From Acholeplasmataceae bacterium (GTDB lineage Bacteria; Bacillota_I; Bacilli_A; Acholeplasmatales; Acholeplasmataceae), in assembly GCA_018400755.1 (NCBI GenBank), contig JAGYLU010000007.1, positions 1-49,836 of the forward strand: a stretch of 49,836 bases of DNA, written 5' to 3'. The translations under genes and the position numbers were made by a program. How positions within the stretch are numbered: position 1 is the first letter of the stretch; each line of letters begins with the position of its first letter. Shown here piece after piece: positions 10,903-40,913 of this stretch. Under the pieces are notes generated by a model that did no database searches, had not been told where the DNA came from, and saw only the letters and a list, made by a program, of their open reading frames with translations.

Positions 10903-11898
10903 TCAGTTGGTTGTCTGCCGGTTCACAATGTAATGCGGCAAGACAATCCGGATGTTATCAACATCGTTTTGATTCATCAATTTGGTCAGAAGCCGCATTG
11001 AGACGGCACCTATATCATATACCGGGATATCGATTGATGTCAAGGTCGGACGGCTGAGAAGCGCATATTTGGTGTTTTGGAACCCGGCGACAGCAAGATC
11101 ATCAGGAACCCGGCGGCCGTTGTCACGGGCGATGTTCATGAATGAGACGGCAATCGAGTCCCGCACGCCAATCGCGGCATCGACTTTCTTGTCGGAGAAG
11201 AAGGTCGAAAAATGCTGGCGATTGATGTTTGTATCGCCGCTTGTCCTAAAGATCTTTGGTTCAAGACCAGCTTCTTCCATCGCCTTGGCATACCCTGATT
11301 CCTTTTTGTCATTGACGGAATAACGTCTGGCTGTGGAAAGCAGATAGACGTTTTTTCGTCCGTTATCGATCATCATCTTGGTGATTTCATAGCCGGCTTT
11401 CTCATAATCGATCGAGACCATCGGCACATCAACGTCATCAGAGACGACATTGGCGAAGACATAAGGGATACCGTTGGTGTTGAAGATCTTCTTGATCTCA
11501 GAGACCCGTTTCTCGTTGAGCTCATCATTCAGATAGAGCACGCCATCAACCTGTTCGGCGACGATGCCTTGCAAAGAATCCATGACATCCATGTCCTCAC
11601 GGATGGAAAAGATCTTGATCGAATAATTATAGTTATGGGCGATATCGCTGATCCCGCCAAGCATCTCCGAGACCGATGCCCTGGTGATGTCAGAAATGAC
11701 GACACCAACGGTAGTGGTCTTGCGGCTGGCAAGTCCGCGGGCAATGACATTCGGCCGATAACCGAGTTCTTTGATGACTTTGAGGACTCTGAGTCTGGTT
11801 TCTTCCTTGACCTTCTCAGGATTGTTCAAGACACGTGAGACAGTCGCCAGAGACACTCCAGCCGCGCCTGCCACGTCATAAATCGTTGCATTGCTCAT
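10903..11898 (-). CDS. ccpA: Catabolite control protein A (LacI family)
   Basis: 331-residue LacI-family regulator. It has an N-terminal helix-turn-helix (TIYDVAGAAGVSLATVSRVL), a hinge helix with GYRPNVIARGLASRKTTTVG nearly identical to Bacillus CcpA, and the CcpA-typical C-terminal YDIGAVSMRLLTKLMN. CcpA binds cre sites when complexed with HPr-Ser-P and represses or activates carbon-catabolite genes. An HPr-like gene with a conserved regulatory Ser lies at 21348-21593. The start is preceded by AAAGGAG, nine bases away. Its promoter contains a cre-like site, suggesting autoregulation. Confidence 0.93.
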   Translation of the reverse strand: MSNATIYDVAGAAGVSLATVSRVLNNPEKVKEETRLRVLKVIKELGYRPNVIARGLASRKTTTVGVVISDITRASVSEMLGGISDIAHNYNYSIKIFSIREDMDVMDSLQGIVAEQVDGVLYLNDELNEKRVSEIKKIFNTNGIPYVFANVVSDDVDVPMVSIDYEKAGYEITKMMIDNGRKNVYLLSTARRYSVNDKKESGYAKAMEEAGLEPKIFRTSGDTNINRQHFSTFFSDKKVDAAIGVRDSIAVSFMNIARDNGRRVPDDLAVAGFQNTKYALLSRPTLTSIDIPVYDIGAVSMRLLTKLMNQNDVDNIRIVLPHYIVNRQTTN

Positions 11899-11927: not shown

Positions 11928-11956
11928 ATTATATCATATGATGTAAGTGCTTTCAA
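11928..11956 (-). promoter_or_regulatory. ccpA promoter with overlapping cre-like operator
   Basis: On the minus strand TTGAAA (11951-11956), a 17-base spacer and TATAAT (11928-11933). The 16-mer at 11941-11956, reading TTGAAAGCACTTACAT, matches WTGNNARCGNWWWCAW at 15 of 16 positions (the central CG is CA) and covers the -35 box, a position for repression. Confidence 0.75.
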
Positions 11957-11963
11957 CTGATTT

Positions 11964-11979
11964 ATGAAAATATTTTCAT
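11964..11979. repeat. Perfect 16-bp palindrome upstream of ccpA
   Basis: ATGAAAATATTTTCAT is a perfect inverted repeat. It resembles a LacI-family operator without the central CG and lies just upstream of the ccpA -35 box. Confidence 0.6.
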
Positions 11980-11987
11980 TCGCTTAC

Positions 11988-12017
11988 AAAAAAAAGAAGG
12001 AGCCATGGCTCCCTCTT
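11988..12017 (-). terminator. Terminator of the rpsP-rplS operon
   Basis: On the minus strand the stem GGGAGCC/GGCTCCT precedes TCTTTTTTTT. Confidence 0.85.
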
Positions 12018-19873: not shown

Positions 19874-20560
19874 ATGTGTGGACGTTTTACCATTGCCGTG
19901 TCATATGATGAGTTGAAATCCTATGTCTTGTCGACCTTTGGGATTGATGAGATGCGTTTTGAGGCTGATCTTCCCCGCTACAATGTCTGCCCGAGAGAAA
20001 ACATCATCGCTGTCATCAACGATGGCAATACCTACCGCATTGGGCAATTGCACTGGGGATTCATCCCCAAGGGATTTTCCATGTCATCCATTAGACCCAT
20101 CAATGCCAGATCGGAAACCGTGGCTGAAAAACCCATGTTCAAAGAGGCCATCAGACGTCATCGCTGTGTCATTCTGGCTGATGGTTTCTACGAATGGAAA
20201 AAAGACAACAAGCGGCGGATCCCTTATCGGTTCGTGATGAAAGAGACGTCACTCTTTGCGATGGCAGGTCTCTACAGCGTCCATAAGACAAATGATGGAA
20301 AAACAGAGAGTACGTCTTTGATCCTGACGACAACGGCCAATACCCTGATGGCAGACATCCACGAACGGATGCCGGTGATCCTTGATCAAAAAGACATCGT
20401 AACATGGCTTTCAAGGACGACCAAAGTTGAAGATCTCACGTTTTTGATGAGACCTTATAATCCATCAAAAATGGTGTTCTATCCAGTCACGCCTCAAGTC
20501 GGACACGCCGGTTTCAAAGATGTCAAAGCCATTGAAGACCTAAGAAAAAAAGACCTTTGA
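19874..20560 (+). CDS. SRAP protein (YedK/HMCES family)
   Basis: 228 residues. It begins MCGRF; after Met removal Cys2 forms the thiazolidine cross-link to abasic sites in single-stranded DNA. Conserved PINARSETV, RRCVILADGFYEWKK and DIHERMPVIL (catalytic His) are present. It shields and repairs abasic sites during replication. It starts 14 codons downstream of the rpsD terminator and is probably separately transcribed. A bidirectional terminator follows. Confidence 0.94.
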   Translation: MCGRFTIAVSYDELKSYVLSTFGIDEMRFEADLPRYNVCPRENIIAVINDGNTYRIGQLHWGFIPKGFSMSSIRPINARSETVAEKPMFKEAIRRHRCVILADGFYEWKKDNKRRIPYRFVMKETSLFAMAGLYSVHKTNDGKTESTSLILTTTANTLMADIHERMPVILDQKDIVTWLSRTTKVEDLTFLMRPYNPSKMVFYPVTPQVGHAGFKDVKAIEDLRKKDL

Positions 20561-20571
20561 GGTCTTTTTTA
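20547..20571. terminator. Bidirectional terminator between the SRAP gene and tpiA
   Basis: AAAGACC/GGTCTTT stem flanked by an A run on one side and a T run on the other; it serves both convergent genes. Confidence 0.8.
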
Positions 20572-20577
20572 TTGGCT

Positions 20578-21345
<768 letters not shown>

Positions 21346-21347
21346 GA

Positions 21348-21593
21348 TCAACCGAGAATCGATGACACGTCTTTGATCGCTTCTTCCGCACGTTGTCCGC
21401 GGGCGACAATACGTACGTTTTCGCCGTGAGGCACAGCGAGCGACATGAGTGCCAAAATAGATTTGAGGTCGACCACACGGTCGGCATAATGCAATTCGAT
21501 CTCAACTGCGTAACGGGAAGCTGTCTGAACGACTTTGGCCGCCAATGACGCATGCAGTCCGGTGGTGCTTTTGATGATGATTTGTTTTTCCAT
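21348..21593 (-). CDS. ptsH: HPr-like protein with altered active-site loop
   Basis: 81 residues with the HPr fold: TTGLHASLAAKVVQTAS around the active-site His14 and VVDLKSILALMSLAV containing the regulatory Ser45. In canonical HPr the histidine is followed by Ala-Arg-Pro; here it is Ala-Ser-Leu, so the Arg that stabilises the phosphohistidine is gone. The Ser that HPr kinase phosphorylates for CcpA binding is kept. Together this suggests a regulatory, Crh-like role more than PTS phosphotransfer (inference). No PTS enzymes are nearby. It sits in the glycolytic operon between the XRE/cupin gene and tpiA; the second ATG gives the best ribosome-binding-site spacing. Confidence 0.85.
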   Translation of the reverse strand: MEKQIIIKSTTGLHASLAAKVVQTASRYAVEIELHYADRVVDLKSILALMSLAVPHGENVRIVARGQRAEEAIKDVSSILG

Positions 21594-21614
21594 AGACATG
21601 TCCTTTCCTTTTCG

Positions 21615-22157
21615 TTAAAACATCGGTGGCGTACTGATCCACAAAATCTTGGCGCGGTGCTGTGTGTTGTTCAGAAGGAAGTGCTCCTTGTTGGCCAGAT
21701 AATAGAATGTCTCACCCTTGCGGATGATGTGGCGTTTACGGTTCAAGACGAGAACAACCTGTCCTTCAAGGACATAGCCGAACTCCTCCCCGGGATGAGG
21801 ATCATCGATTTCCGATTGTCCGCCCGGTTCAATCTCAATAATGATGGGTTCCATCTCATATTTCAGAGCATTTGGTACGATCCAGCTGATGGCGTGTTTG
21901 AGTTGTTCGTTTTCCTTGACGTAGAAATCCTCTTTTTTGAAGACGGCGTTCTGCTCGACTTCTTTGGTGAAGAACTCATGGATGTCCGTGCCAAGGACTT
22001 CTAGGATTGCGAACAACGTCTGCATCGATGGTGATGTGAGATTGTTCTCAAGCTGTGAGATGTACCCTTTGGTCAACTCAAGACGGTTCGCGAGTTCTTC
22101 TTGTGTCAGGTTGTTTCCCAGACGCAGAGCGCGGATTTTCTTACCGATGTTGACCAT
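21615..22157 (-). CDS. XRE-family regulator with cupin domain
   Basis: 180 residues. It has an N-terminal helix-turn-helix (IRALRLGNNLTQEELANRLE, TKGYISQLENNLTSPS) and a C-terminal cupin (HPGEEFGYVLEGQVVLVLN...GETFYY). In this architecture (PuuR-like) the cupin senses a small ligand and HTH binding changes. Its ATG overlaps the pgk stop by one base, so it is translated from the glycolytic operon. The ligand is unknown; the operon position suggests a metabolite of lower glycolysis or polyamine/amino-acid control. Confidence 0.88.
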   Translation of the reverse strand: MVNIGKKIRALRLGNNLTQEELANRLELTKGYISQLENNLTSPSMQTLFAILEVLGTDIHEFFTKEVEQNAVFKKEDFYVKENEQLKHAISWIVPNALKYEMEPIIIEIEPGGQSEIDDPHPGEEFGYVLEGQVVLVLNRKRHIIRKGETFYYLANKEHFLLNNTQHRAKILWISTPPMF

Positions 22158-23353
22158 TATCTCTCATCGACACACTGGATGCCGGGAAGCGTCTTGCCCT
22201 CGAAATACTCAAGAGACGCGCCCCCGCCAGTGGAGATGTGCGTGAAGTCATCTTCAAGACCGAATCCGATGACCGCAGCGGCGGAGTCACCACCGCCGAT
22301 GATCGTGGTTGCTGTTGATTTCATGGACGCGATGACGGTTGCGATGGTTTTGGTGCCTTCGGCGAACCGTTCAAACTCGAAAACACCGAGTGGTCCGTTC
22401 CAAATGACGGTCTTGGCTTCAAGAATGGCTTTCTTGAAGAGTTCACGGGTTTCAGGACCGATATCCATTCCCATCTCATCGGCAGGAATGCCATCGACGG
22501 GTCTGATGTTCTTCTCACTATCGGGATCGAATGTCTTCGCGGTGACAACATCGGTACCGAGCAGGATCTTGCCGCCTGCCAAATCCAGAAGCTCCTTGGC
22601 CAAATCGACCTTGTCGGCCTCAAGAAGGCTGGTGCCGACGTCATAACCGAGGGCTTTGAAGAATGTATAGGCCATACCGCCACCAATCAAGACCTTGTCA
22701 GCGACGTTGAGCAGGTTCTTGATGACATTGATCTTGTCTGAGACTTTTGCCCCACCAAGGATGGCGACCAATGGTCTTTCCGGTGCTTCAAGGGTACCAC
22801 CGATGAACCGGATCTCTTTTTCCAAGAGAAACCCAGCCACGGTTGTGCCGATGTTTGATGAAATCCCGACATTCGACGCATGCTCACGATGGGCAGTGCC
22901 GAACGCGTCATTGACAAAGACATCTCCAAGTGATGCCCAGTAGGCACCGAGCTCAGGATTGTTCTTGCTCTCTTTTTTTCCATCAAGATCTTCAAAACGG
23001 GTGTTCTCAAACATCAGAATGTCTCCGTCTTTCAGCTGATTGACTGCATCTTCAAGCGCTTTTCCACGGGTGACCGGGACAAAGGTGACATTTTTTTCAA
23101 GCAGCTCGCCAAGGCGGGTTGCGACCGGCTGAAGTGTGTTCTTTTCTTGATCGGAAGGCTCTTTGATCCGGCCAAGATGCGAAAAGACGATGGCGCGGCC
23201 CCCTTCATCGATGATGTGTCTCAAAGTGGGTAAGGCTTGCACGATCCGGTTCTCGTCAGTGATCACACCGTCCTTCATCGGGACGTTGAAATCGACCCTG
23301 ACAAGGACCTTTTTCCCTTTCAGGCTCAGATCCCTGATTGTTTTCTTTGCCAT
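22157..23353 (-). CDS. pgk: Phosphoglycerate kinase
   Basis: 398-residue two-domain kinase making ATP from 1,3-bisphosphoglycerate. [12 protein letters not shown], the substrate-binding SHLGR, and the C-terminal nucleotide loop GGGDSAAAV are intact. It is the first gene of an operon followed by xre/cupin, HPr-like and tpiA, with a GGAGGATG ribosome-binding site and an extended -10 promoter. Confidence 0.98.
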
Positions 23354-23402
23354 GTTTCATCCTCCTCCAATGGTGGTTGCATCGTTTTTTTTTGCCGTCC
23401 CC

Positions 23403-23408
23403 ATTATA
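23403..23408 (-). promoter_or_regulatory. Extended -10 of the pgk operon
   Basis: TGTTATAAT on the minus strand; the box overlaps the TAA stop of the upstream ComK-like gene. Confidence 0.65.
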
Positions 23409-23850
23409 ACATCAAATCAGGCCATTTACTACACGATACGCTATGAAAATGCTTTACTTTCACGTCTCTGATGGTCATAAGGGTATGAATACGCCTCTCA
23501 ATCTGAGCTTGTGAAAGAGATGACTCAAAACGCTGATTGCCAAGCATGGTGATGATCGTGAGGGTACTTGACGTCTTGATCCCGGTGATGGCTGCGACAT
23601 TGATCCAGACCGTATCGTGATTCCTGATGCGTCCCAAGGGGATCAATCCCAATTGCTCATGGATGTAGACAGGAATCTGATAACGGAAACCAAACTGCGC
23701 TTTCACCGCTTTCAAATAACCCTCATGCGTAAAAAGCCCATCCTCGCACAAGCGTTTCACAACGCTCAAGACGGACTTTTTGATGATTTTTTCACCTTCA
23801 GTTGATACAAGTAGAGACCCCAAAGGATCAGCTTTGATGATTGTGATCAT
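23404..23850 (-). CDS. ComK-like competence regulator (tentative)
   Basis: About 148 residues. The C-terminal half, IPVYIHEQLGLIPLGRIRN followed by WINVAAITGI and FESSLSQAQIERRIHTLM, follows the ComK pattern (LFP, W-I/V-N..HI, and a closing S.....Q..R...L). ComK is the master activator of DNA-uptake genes in Bacillus. The match is by pattern recognition, not alignment. The start at 23850 was chosen because an earlier ATG would overlap the malK terminator; no strong ribosome-binding site is visible. The gene lies between malK and pgk. Confidence 0.5.
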   Translation of the reverse strand: MITIIKADPLGSLLVSTEGEKIIKKSVLSVVKRLCEDGLFTHEGYLKAVKAQFGFRYQIPVYIHEQLGLIPLGRIRNHDTVWINVAAITGIKTSSTLTIITMLGNQRFESSLSQAQIERRIHTLMTIRDVKVKHFHSVSCSKWPDLML

Positions 23851-23862
23851 GTCTTGATAAAG

Positions 23863-23882
23863 AAAAAAGGCCCGAAGGCCTT
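23863..23882 (-). terminator. Terminator of the MalK/MsmX-type ATPase gene
   Basis: On the minus strand AAGGCC, a short loop with TTCG, GGCCTT, then TTTTCTTT. It lies immediately after the malK-like stop codon. Confidence 0.8.
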
Positions 23883-23885
23883 CAA

Positions 23886-25088
23886 TCATTCCTCGTTTTC
23901 AGGATCCAATGCCTCTTTCGCACTGTCAAGCTTTTGGGCTTTGAGCGCTTGAAGCGTGGTCTTGTTCATGCCAAGCTCATTTTCATCGATGACGAGCCGG
24001 AGTTCGGTCTCAGGATCGAAGAAATGGGATTTGTTCATGTCAAGGGCAAGCGTCATCTTGTCACCGATGCTGACACCTGAACGGGCGTTGACACTGGCAC
24101 AGATGTTGTCATTGTTGATCATGAAATAGATGTTGGTCTCAGAGCCAAGAAGCTCGGCGACATCAACGATGACGTCTAAGACAGCATTTGGATATGCGTC
24201 CATGACAATCTTCTCATCATGGATGTCCTCAGGACGGATACCTAGGATGATGTCCTTGTTCAACATCTTGTTGACCTTGATGATCTCAAGTTTGTCTTCG
24301 GGCACCTGGATCTTGTACTTGCCGGCCGCGAACAATCCGCTTGAGTCAACGCGTCCGCTGATGAAGTTCATCGGCGGTGTGCCAATGAATCCGGCAACAA
24401 ACAAGTTGTTCGGATGGTCATAGATGTCTTTTGGATTACCGACTTGCATGATGTATCCATCTCTCATGACGACGATGCGTGAGGCCATGGTCATGGCTTC
24501 GATCTGGTCATGGGTGACGTAGATGGTTGTCGTTTCAATCTTGTTATGCAGTTTGATGAGTTCTCCGCGCATCTGGACGCGCAGTTTGGCATCGAGGTTT
24601 GATAGTGGTTCATCCATGAGGAAGACCTTGGCGTTTCTGACGATGGCGCGGCCGAGTGCGACACGCTGTCTTTGACCACCGGAGAGGGCTTTGGGCTTAC
24701 GCTTCAAGTAAGGGACAAGACCAAGAATCTCAGCGGCTTCAGTGACTTTCTCATTGATGACATCTTTCGGGACTTTTCTGAGTTTGAGTCCGAAGGCCAT
24801 GTTGTCATAAACAGTCATATGCGGATAAAGGGCGTATGACTGGAAAACCATGGCGATGTTTCTGTCTTTCGGAGCCTTGTCATTGACGAGTTCATCATCA
24901 ATATAGAGTTCACCACTGGTGATTTCCTCAAGACCGGCGATCATGCGCAGGGTCGTTGACTTCCCACAACCAGAAGGTCCGACAAACACGATAAATTCCT
25001 TGTCTCTGATCTTCAGATTGAAGTCGAAGACGGCTTGAACACCATTGGGATAAACCTTGTTGATGTCTTTGAGCTGCAACGTTGCCAT
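23886..25088 (-). CDS. msmX: Carbohydrate ABC transporter ATPase (MalK/UgpC/MsmX type)
   Basis: 400 residues. An ABC domain has Walker A GPSGCGKST (37-45), the signature LSGGQRQRVALGRA, Walker B VFLMDEPLSNLDA and H-loop THD. It is followed by the OB-type regulatory domain characteristic of MalK/UgpC (ILGIRPEDIHDEKI). No permease or binding-protein genes are adjacent, so like Bacillus MsmX it may be a shared ATPase for several sugar importers. It is single-gene, with a terminator, and downstream of a palindromic operator and a PucR-type regulator gene. Confidence 0.88.
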   Translation of the reverse strand: MATLQLKDINKVYPNGVQAVFDFNLKIRDKEFIVFVGPSGCGKSTTLRMIAGLEEITSGELYIDDELVNDKAPKDRNIAMVFQSYALYPHMTVYDNMAFGLKLRKVPKDVINEKVTEAAEILGLVPYLKRKPKALSGGQRQRVALGRAIVRNAKVFLMDEPLSNLDAKLRVQMRGELIKLHNKIETTTIYVTHDQIEAMTMASRIVVMRDGYIMQVGNPKDIYDHPNNLFVAGFIGTPPMNFISGRVDSSGLFAAGKYKIQVPEDKLEIIKVNKMLNKDIILGIRPEDIHDEKIVMDAYPNAVLDVIVDVAELLGSETNIYFMINNDNICASVNARSGVSIGDKMTLALDMNKSHFFDPETELRLVIDENELGMNKTTLQALKAQKLDSAKEALDPENEE

Positions 25089-25123
25089 TTTTTTCTATTC
25101 CTTTCATATTCGTTATCATCTAT

Positions 25124-25129
25124 ATTGTA
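25124..25129 (-). promoter_or_regulatory. -10 box of the msmX-like gene
   Basis: TACAAT on the minus strand about 36 bases before the start codon. The -35 region (TGTGAA) is weak and directly downstream of the palindrome at 25152-25168, consistent with activation. Confidence 0.5.
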
Positions 25130-25151
25130 GCAGGTCACGCATGATTTTCAC

Positions 25152-25168
25152 ATGTGCACAGTGCACAT
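25152..25168. promoter_or_regulatory. 17-bp palindromic operator
   Basis: ATGTGCAC-A-GTGCACAT is a perfect inverted repeat between the PucR-type regulator gene and the msmX-like gene. It is centred about 43 bases upstream of the predicted msmX start, typical for an activator site; the neighbouring regulator is the obvious candidate ligand (inference). Confidence 0.65.
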
Positions 25169-25170
25169 AT

Positions 25171-25746
25171 TTATGACAGCAACTGATAGACCAGGTAAGC
25201 ATCGATGAATGTTTTCATGTCAAAACCGGTGGTCTCCTTGAACTTATCCAACCGTTGGATCAAGGTGTTACGGTGCACATAAAGCTTTCTGGCGGCGACC
25301 GTCGTGTTCATATCGGATTCAAGGTAGGTGATCACTGTGTCTTTCATCTGGGCGTCTTTCGCGTATTTCCTGAGCATGAACCTTGATGCTCTCGTGTCAT
25401 GTCTGGCCAAGGCTTCCTTCAAGATGATCCGGTCATCAAGACTGGGGTGTTTCTGAAAGTCAATGGTTTCCATGAGCTTTGTGACAAACAGACGGTGCTC
25501 TTCCATGAAATGCTCATCATCAAAGGCATGGGAGACATAGATCCGCAAGTCCGCGTAGGTGTCAGCCATCATGTTCAGAATGACATCGGAAAACGAGACA
25601 TCGGTCTCATGGGAAAAGTAGAGAATCAACATCCGACTGGCTGAGACCACCCGGTCAATGGTGATGAACTCAGAAAACAATGAGAGCACGGTCTGATCGT
25701 CGACCGGCATATCCTGTTTGCTTTCAATGATCACATATCTTTGCAT
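25171..25746 (-). CDS. PucR/CdaR-family regulator (C-terminal HTH)
   Basis: 191 residues. The C-terminal segment YLESDMNTTVAARKLYVHRN followed by TLIQRL, and the FKETTGFD motif, are the PucR-type HTH seen in CdaR and sugar-diacid regulators. The N-terminal 120 residues have no recognisable sensor domain and are shorter than in most family members. It is on the same strand as the msmX-like gene, ending just upstream of the palindromic operator. Confidence 0.8.
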   Translation of the reverse strand: MQRYVIIESKQDMPVDDQTVLSLFSEFITIDRVVSASRMLILYFSHETDVSFSDVILNMMADTYADLRIYVSHAFDDEHFMEEHRLFVTKLMETIDFQKHPSLDDRIILKEALARHDTRASRFMLRKYAKDAQMKDTVITYLESDMNTTVAARKLYVHRNTLIQRLDKFKETTGFDMKTFIDAYLVYQLLS

Positions 25747-40897: not shown

Positions 40898-40913
40898 TTG
40901 AATGCGTTTTCAA
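40898..40913 (-). promoter_or_regulatory. cre site upstream of oppA
   Basis: On the minus strand TTGAAAACGCATTCAA matches WTGNNARCGNWWWCAW at all 16 positions. It is centred about 64 bases upstream of the predicted oppA start, a spacing seen for CcpA-activated genes. Confidence 0.7.

Follow-up and report, generated by a model that had tools for sequence, protein, structure and literature searches.

The 49,836-nucleotide window of an Acholeplasmataceae genome analysed here carries, between the genes for two glycolytic enzymes, a gene for a small HPr-like protein, here called V. The phosphotransfer histidine of this protein is present, the two residues that mark a carrier site are replaced, and the regulatory serine region is well conserved. 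The question raised by the locus is what an HPr of this kind does: does it still carry phosphate for the phosphotransferase system (PTS), or has it become a regulator addressed by HPr kinase (HprK)? The initial annotation favoured the second answer, suggesting that V could be a dedicated co-repressor of CcpA and not a PTS carrier.

The protein and its operon

V matches the Pfam PTS-HPr family (PF00381) with 82 bits (cut-off 23) and TIGR01003 with 76 bits (cut-off 47.9). The AlphaFold2 model, obtained from a 22-row alignment, has the HPr fold with a mean pLDDT of 90.7, and at E <= 0.001 Foldseek matches it in the PDB to chains of HPr and Crh only. The stop codon occupies 21350-21348. The start is likely the ATG at 21593, since orthologues begin with MEK and a purine-rich stretch resembling a ribosome-binding site lies about 8 nt upstream; a second in-frame ATG at 21599, six bases upstream, would give a protein of 83 residues.

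His14 and Ser45 of V correspond to His15 and Ser46 of HPr, whose numbering is used hereafter. The carrier site, GLHASLAAK, reads His15-Ala16-Ser17-Leu18, with Ser in place of Arg17 and Leu in place of Pro18, so that HASL stands where a carrier has His15 followed by Ala-Arg-Pro. The regulatory region, DLKSILALMSL, keeps Lys45 and Ser46, and an HprK gene (L006) is present in the same genome; in both respects V resembles Crh. Both sites had been read correctly in the initial annotation, and its remark that the pattern is the opposite of that in Crh is literally right, as B. subtilis Crh reads GLQARPA.

The genes on the minus strand run in the order ugpC (named by eye), a ComK-like gene, pgk, a gene for an XRE-cupin regulator, V and tpiA (Table 1). 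V and tpiA are probably translationally coupled, judging from their spacing, and the palindrome beyond tpiA is likely the operon terminator. The ComK-like gene (23404-23889; PF06338, 28 bits), which lies between ugpC and pgk, has homologues at the corresponding position in many of the V loci.

Table 1. Coordinates in the window of V, its key codons and the neighbouring or related features
Feature	Position	Strand	Basis or remark
HPr-like protein V, 81 aa	21348..21593	-	ORF, PTS-HPr profile and AlphaFold2 model
V His14 (= HPr His15) codon	21554-21552	-	
V Ser16/Leu17 (= HPr 17/18) codons	21548-21543	-	
V Ser45 (= HPr Ser46) codon	21461-21459	-	
tpiA	20578..21345	-	ATG 3 bp past V stop codon; downstream neighbour in 128/129 V loci
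XRE-cupin transcription regulator	21615..22157	-	directly upstream of V
pgk, phosphoglycerate kinase	22157..23353	-	upstream partner of V in 129/129 loci
Palindrome with flanking A and T runs, 3' of tpiA	20546..20570		consensus match only
CcpA-type LacI-family regulator	10903..11898	-	best PDB match B. subtilis CcpA; HPr-Ser-P helix kept

The arrangement recurs in other genomes. V lies between pgk and tpiA at 128 of 129 loci, pgk alone being visible at the remaining one, while the XRE-cupin gene is seen directly upstream of V at 62 of the 129 and was not detected at the others. Among all the HPrs fetched, none apart from V is found near pgk or tpiA. This fixed place suggests that production of the V signal keeps pace with lower glycolysis, where the signal may act, and its invariance means that glycolysis is indicated as much as CcpA is. 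No description of an HPr between pgk and tpiA was found in the titles and abstract openings of the open-access papers searched.

Distribution, residue pattern and descent

The V set consists of 129 non-identical HPr sequences that were sorted by the pgk/tpiA neighbourhood alone, with 44 other HPrs for comparison. The V-type queries with which the sequences were gathered make the 129 a non-random draw; independence from the motif holds for the neighbourhood sorting only. The third HPr of the genome that contains the window (G000, contig C206) was missed by the seed HMM and stands outside the 44.

By hand count, 87 of 120 relatives have a V orthologue, with 46-100% identity. V is absent from the small genomes of genus g8, which are probably phytoplasmas. 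The named records of the group all belong to Acholeplasmatales: Acholeplasma laidlawii, A. oculi, A. granularum, Peloplasma and Anaeroplasmataceae. When 395 genomes of the class were searched, V turned up in four further families (f16, f24, f19 and f9); of the genomes so listed, 41 outside Acholeplasmatales supplied V loci.

The residue pattern is very uniform. Among the 129 V sequences, position 15 is His in 120, Asp in seven and Asn in two; Arg17 occurs in three and Pro18 in none, while Lys45 is kept in 126 and Ser46 in 128. One V (G130) has Asn at position 46 despite the presence of HprK in its genome. The 44 other HPrs have His15 in all 44, Arg17 in 41, Pro18 in 42 and Ser46 in 42. V also has a signature of its own, with Thr11 in 98%, Leu48 in 100% and Ala54 in 99% of the sequences. 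Position 54, which is described as near His15 (PMC12445079), is Ala in Crh as well and Gly in 86% of the other HPrs. Since the same replacement is found across 129 non-identical sequences from the pgk/tpiA locus, the change of motif is neither a chance event nor a sequencing error.

In a phylogeny of 85 sequences, a branch with 99/99 support separates 43 V representatives, together with two relatives encoded away from the locus (L053 and L074), from 37 other HPrs, one further HPr, B. subtilis HPr and Crh. The split remains at 98/96 when positions 15-18 and 46 and three reference rows are removed. Since B. subtilis Crh lies across this branch, V is on this evidence a distinct HPr clade that would have arisen separately and is not a Crh, as far as a tree of only about 80 columns with a weak inner order can tell. 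The two off-locus relatives (L053, 4691-4942, and L074, 4646-4906), with the motifs HASLC and HAKKC, represent additional paralogues within family f3. The clade as a whole combines a changed carrier site, a near-invariant regulatory serine and a conserved place in the glycolysis operon, and is wider than could be seen from the window.

HprK, enzyme I and the other HPrs

Three HPr matches occur in the genome of origin (2.23 Mb in 239 contigs, 95% complete). Besides V, there is an ordinary HPr on contig C229, with the motifs GIHARPA and LKSIMG, and the third HPr on C206 (L005), which keeps His-Ile-Arg-Pro, has lost the Ser46 motif and adjoins a gene for enzyme I (EI). There are two EI genes, a methylglyoxal synthase gene and one HprK gene, whose product has both Pfam domains and an intact P-loop; it is followed by an lgt-like gene (by eye). 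The search for EI, a second ptsH and HPr kinase that the initial annotation had recommended has thus turned up all three, and the lack of an HprK gene, which it named as fatal to its proposal, is not what the genome displays. With this set of genes a division of labour is possible, and the ordinary and the EI-adjacent HPr provide PTS carriers besides V.

Two features next to these HPrs may be recorded here. The cluster at L005 (223-4832) reads nagA, HPr, EI, PRD antiterminator and EIIA, and may form a dedicated relay apart from HprK control. Just upstream of the ordinary HPr (L004, 8236-8604) is a gene for a membrane-anchored protein of 122 residues, which by eye resembles an EIIB(Glc) domain without its cysteine and has no Pfam match.

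HprK accompanies V almost everywhere. Of 128 V genomes examined for it, 123 yielded HprK, among them, by hand count, all 66 V-bearing relatives that are at least 90% complete. The four among the 87 V-bearing relatives that yielded no HprK (83 did, likewise by hand count) are 82-88% complete, and the one exception among the 41 genomes outside Acholeplasmatales (40 have it) is 79% complete; an absence in this search is not firm, as the same family search gave no match in the B. subtilis control genome. HprK without V occurs in eight of the 33 V-less relatives. V is a candidate HprK partner in Acholeplasmatales. According to a 2016 survey of Mollicutes, nearly all members apart from phytoplasmas keep HprK, and no transcription factor is universally associated with it (PMC5138195).

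Of the 87 V-bearing relatives, 83 yielded EI. Eight genomes (G204, G210, G269, G304, G327, G182, G339 and G239) have HprK and a single PF00381 match, which is V, and no PF02896 match of EI size, EI being distinguished from PPDK by the length of the frame and the span of the match. In these genomes V is the only visible candidate for an HPr-type substrate of HprK. Position 15 of V is Asp or Asn in seven of the eight; the V of G204 keeps both His15 and Arg17. G251 displays a clean split, in which V has Asp15 and Ser46 and the EI-adjacent HPr has His15 and Arg46.

The EI-like proteins of families f3 and f5 include short, diverged forms of about 500 residues with 25-30% identity (L313-L322, L324 and L325). 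In genus g23 of f3 the EI-like genes adjoin PHP-like and AbrB-like genes (by eye) and not sugar PTS genes, and no canonical HPr was found in their flanks. The EI-like protein of G082 is split over two frames.

Proposed role and known systems

The residue pattern, the clade, the gene order and the co-occurrence of partner genes make it reasonably likely that V is a Crh-like HPr paralogue of the glycolysis operon, a seryl-phosphorylated regulator and not a general PTS phosphocarrier. HprK is activated by fructose-1,6-bisphosphate and modifies HPr on Ser46, and the HPr so modified is a poor EI substrate, acts with CcpA as co-repressor and is able to reduce the activity of GapA (PMC12445079). By the same route, high fructose-1,6-bisphosphate would lead HprK to phosphorylate Ser46 of V, and V in its Ser-P or unphosphorylated form would bind a partner in regulation, which may be CcpA, a glycolytic enzyme or both. 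This binding would adjust carbon metabolism, by analogy turning the fructose-1,6-bisphosphate level into a protein-protein signal. The loss of Arg17-Pro18 and the change of Gly54 to Ala would remodel the His15 face that is used by EI and the EIIs, so that phosphotransfer by V is expected to be weak or absent.

A direct form of such an action would be modulation of a triose-phosphate enzyme (TpiA, Pgk or GapA) or of methylglyoxal synthase (MgsA), which is a tentative possibility. There are precedents on both sides: HPr-S46-P inhibits B. subtilis GapA by up to 35% (PMC12445079), and Crh, which is phosphorylated on serine by HprK, inhibits MgsA in its unphosphorylated form (PMC9631020). The pgk-V-tpiA order and the tight spacing of V and tpiA in the window fit this idea, but a position in an operon does not by itself reveal which enzyme is the target. 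MgsA can be rejected as a general target, because no MgsA match was found in any f3 genome, though V is kept there.

A partnership between V-Ser-P and CcpA as a dedicated co-repressor, the version put forward in the initial annotation, is somewhat unlikely. The CcpA that it saw in the window is indeed a LacI-family regulator whose closest solved structure is CcpA, although its score of 289 bits falls short of the TIGR01481 cut-off (442). The regulator keeps the YDIGAV-MRLLTK helix with which B. megaterium CcpA binds HPr-Ser-P. In an alignment of 29 Acholeplasmatales orthologues, from 102 genomes with a match, helix 295-307 (B. megaterium numbering), including Asp296, Val300, Arg303 and Lys307, is identical in all 29; Asp275 is replaced by Gln in every one of them, and Asp99 is variable. 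In B. subtilis CcpA, the contact with Ser46-P is made by Arg304 (PMC4591507), and streptococcal CcpA requires V301 in order to bind HPr-Ser-P (PMC8359418); these residues appear to be positions 303 and 300 of the B. megaterium protein. Judged from this helix, CcpA of the order can bind a Ser-P HPr. However, an ordinary HPr would maintain the helix just as well, so that its conservation does not discriminate between the two partners. The loss of Arg17, a residue through which HPr contacts CcpA, could weaken docking. In E. coli, the same HPr residue takes part in docking to another regulator, MtlR (PMC6763467). A search with the cre-like pattern WTGNAANCGNWNNCAW, one mismatch allowed, gave no site in the pgk operon (20578-25746), and cre control of this operon is rejected. 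In the V-only families, the fetched flanks contain no CcpA-like ORF. Hence the claim of a regulator in place of a carrier is borne out by Ser46 in 128 and Pro18 in none of the 129 sequences and by the eight genomes with V and HprK and no EI-size match; as to the co-repressor part, CcpA and its helix are there, but nothing ties V, rather than the ordinary HPr, to them.

The window as a whole has 21 cre-like matches against 10 expected in shuffles, among them sites at 40898-40913, upstream of an oligopeptide-binding-type gene, and at 11941-11989, upstream of ccpA. Five genomes, G005, G018 and G029 (genus g4) and G073 and G077 (family f2), have a CcpA-type regulator and no HPr was found in them; HprK and EI were likewise not found in the first three. 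CcpA in these genomes may act without a Ser-P HPr.

The idea that V is still a phosphocarrier, or an EI-dependent sensor whose His15 is slowly phosphorylated by EI and which reports phosphoenolpyruvate together with fructose-1,6-bisphosphate, is quite unlikely. Since His15 is kept in 120 of the 129 sequences, some residual function of this residue is likely in most V lineages, and a slow or special phosphorylation of it is possible. On the tree His15 has been lost three times, mainly where EI was not found: EI is missing for six of the seven His-less representatives and for five of the 36 His-bearing ones (Fisher p 0.0005), but there are only two or three independent pairs, and a paired sign test is not significant. 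Such co-loss can be read as use of V-His15 by EI where EI exists. In addition, an EI-like protein in which the active-site His motif is present occurs in four genomes (G087, G091, G097 and G104) where the V-based queries detect no HPr other than V and the EI flanks gave none. Against a carrier role, however, Arg17 and Pro18, nearly universal in the other HPrs, are replaced in V; both other HPrs of the genome of origin have Arg and Pro, and the gene for one of them adjoins an EI gene; and V persists where neither an EI-size protein nor another HPr was found. A view of V as a paralogue in decay that has no specific role, which the loss of carrier-site residues might suggest, is highly improbable in view of the near-invariant Ser46, the conserved operon place, the new Thr11/Leu48/Ala54 signature and the 60-93% identity among the V proteins of the order, excepting that of G092 and one off-locus relative.

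As a Crh-like regulator, V would represent a second, independent route by which the carrier site of an HPr was lost and the HprK serine kept, now inside the glycolysis operon. Genomes with HprK and V alone would make it possible to examine what purpose HprK signalling serves when there is no PTS. A bolder extension, which is rather unlikely, is that V and HprK form a PTS-independent pair sensing fructose-1,6-bisphosphate, free of EI and ordinary HPr and feeding back on the Pgk-TpiA step, and that this pair is the sole HPr system left in some lineages (f19 and f9).

Among the known systems, Crh of B. subtilis (PDB 1MO1, 1K1C and 1ZVV) shares with V the HPr fold, the Ser46 region, a remodelled His15 face, Ala54 and Leu50, and both are companions of HprK beside a separate ordinary HPr. 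Crh differs in having Gln15 and keeping Arg17-Pro18 (QARP), whereas V mostly keeps His15 and loses Arg17-Pro18; V also forms a separate clade and lies in the pgk-tpiA context, while the crh gene lies in the context yvcJ-yvcK-whiA. HPr (PtsH) itself shares the PF00381/TIGR01003 profiles, His15, Ser46 and the fold, B. subtilis HPr having HARP and Ser46, but V lacks Arg17-Pro18, has Ala54, lies in a glycolysis operon and coexists with other HPrs in the same genome. The Ser46-less HPr of L005 is, like V, a specialized HPr paralogue and is its mirror image within one genome, with His-Ile-Arg-Pro kept and the Ser46 motif lost.
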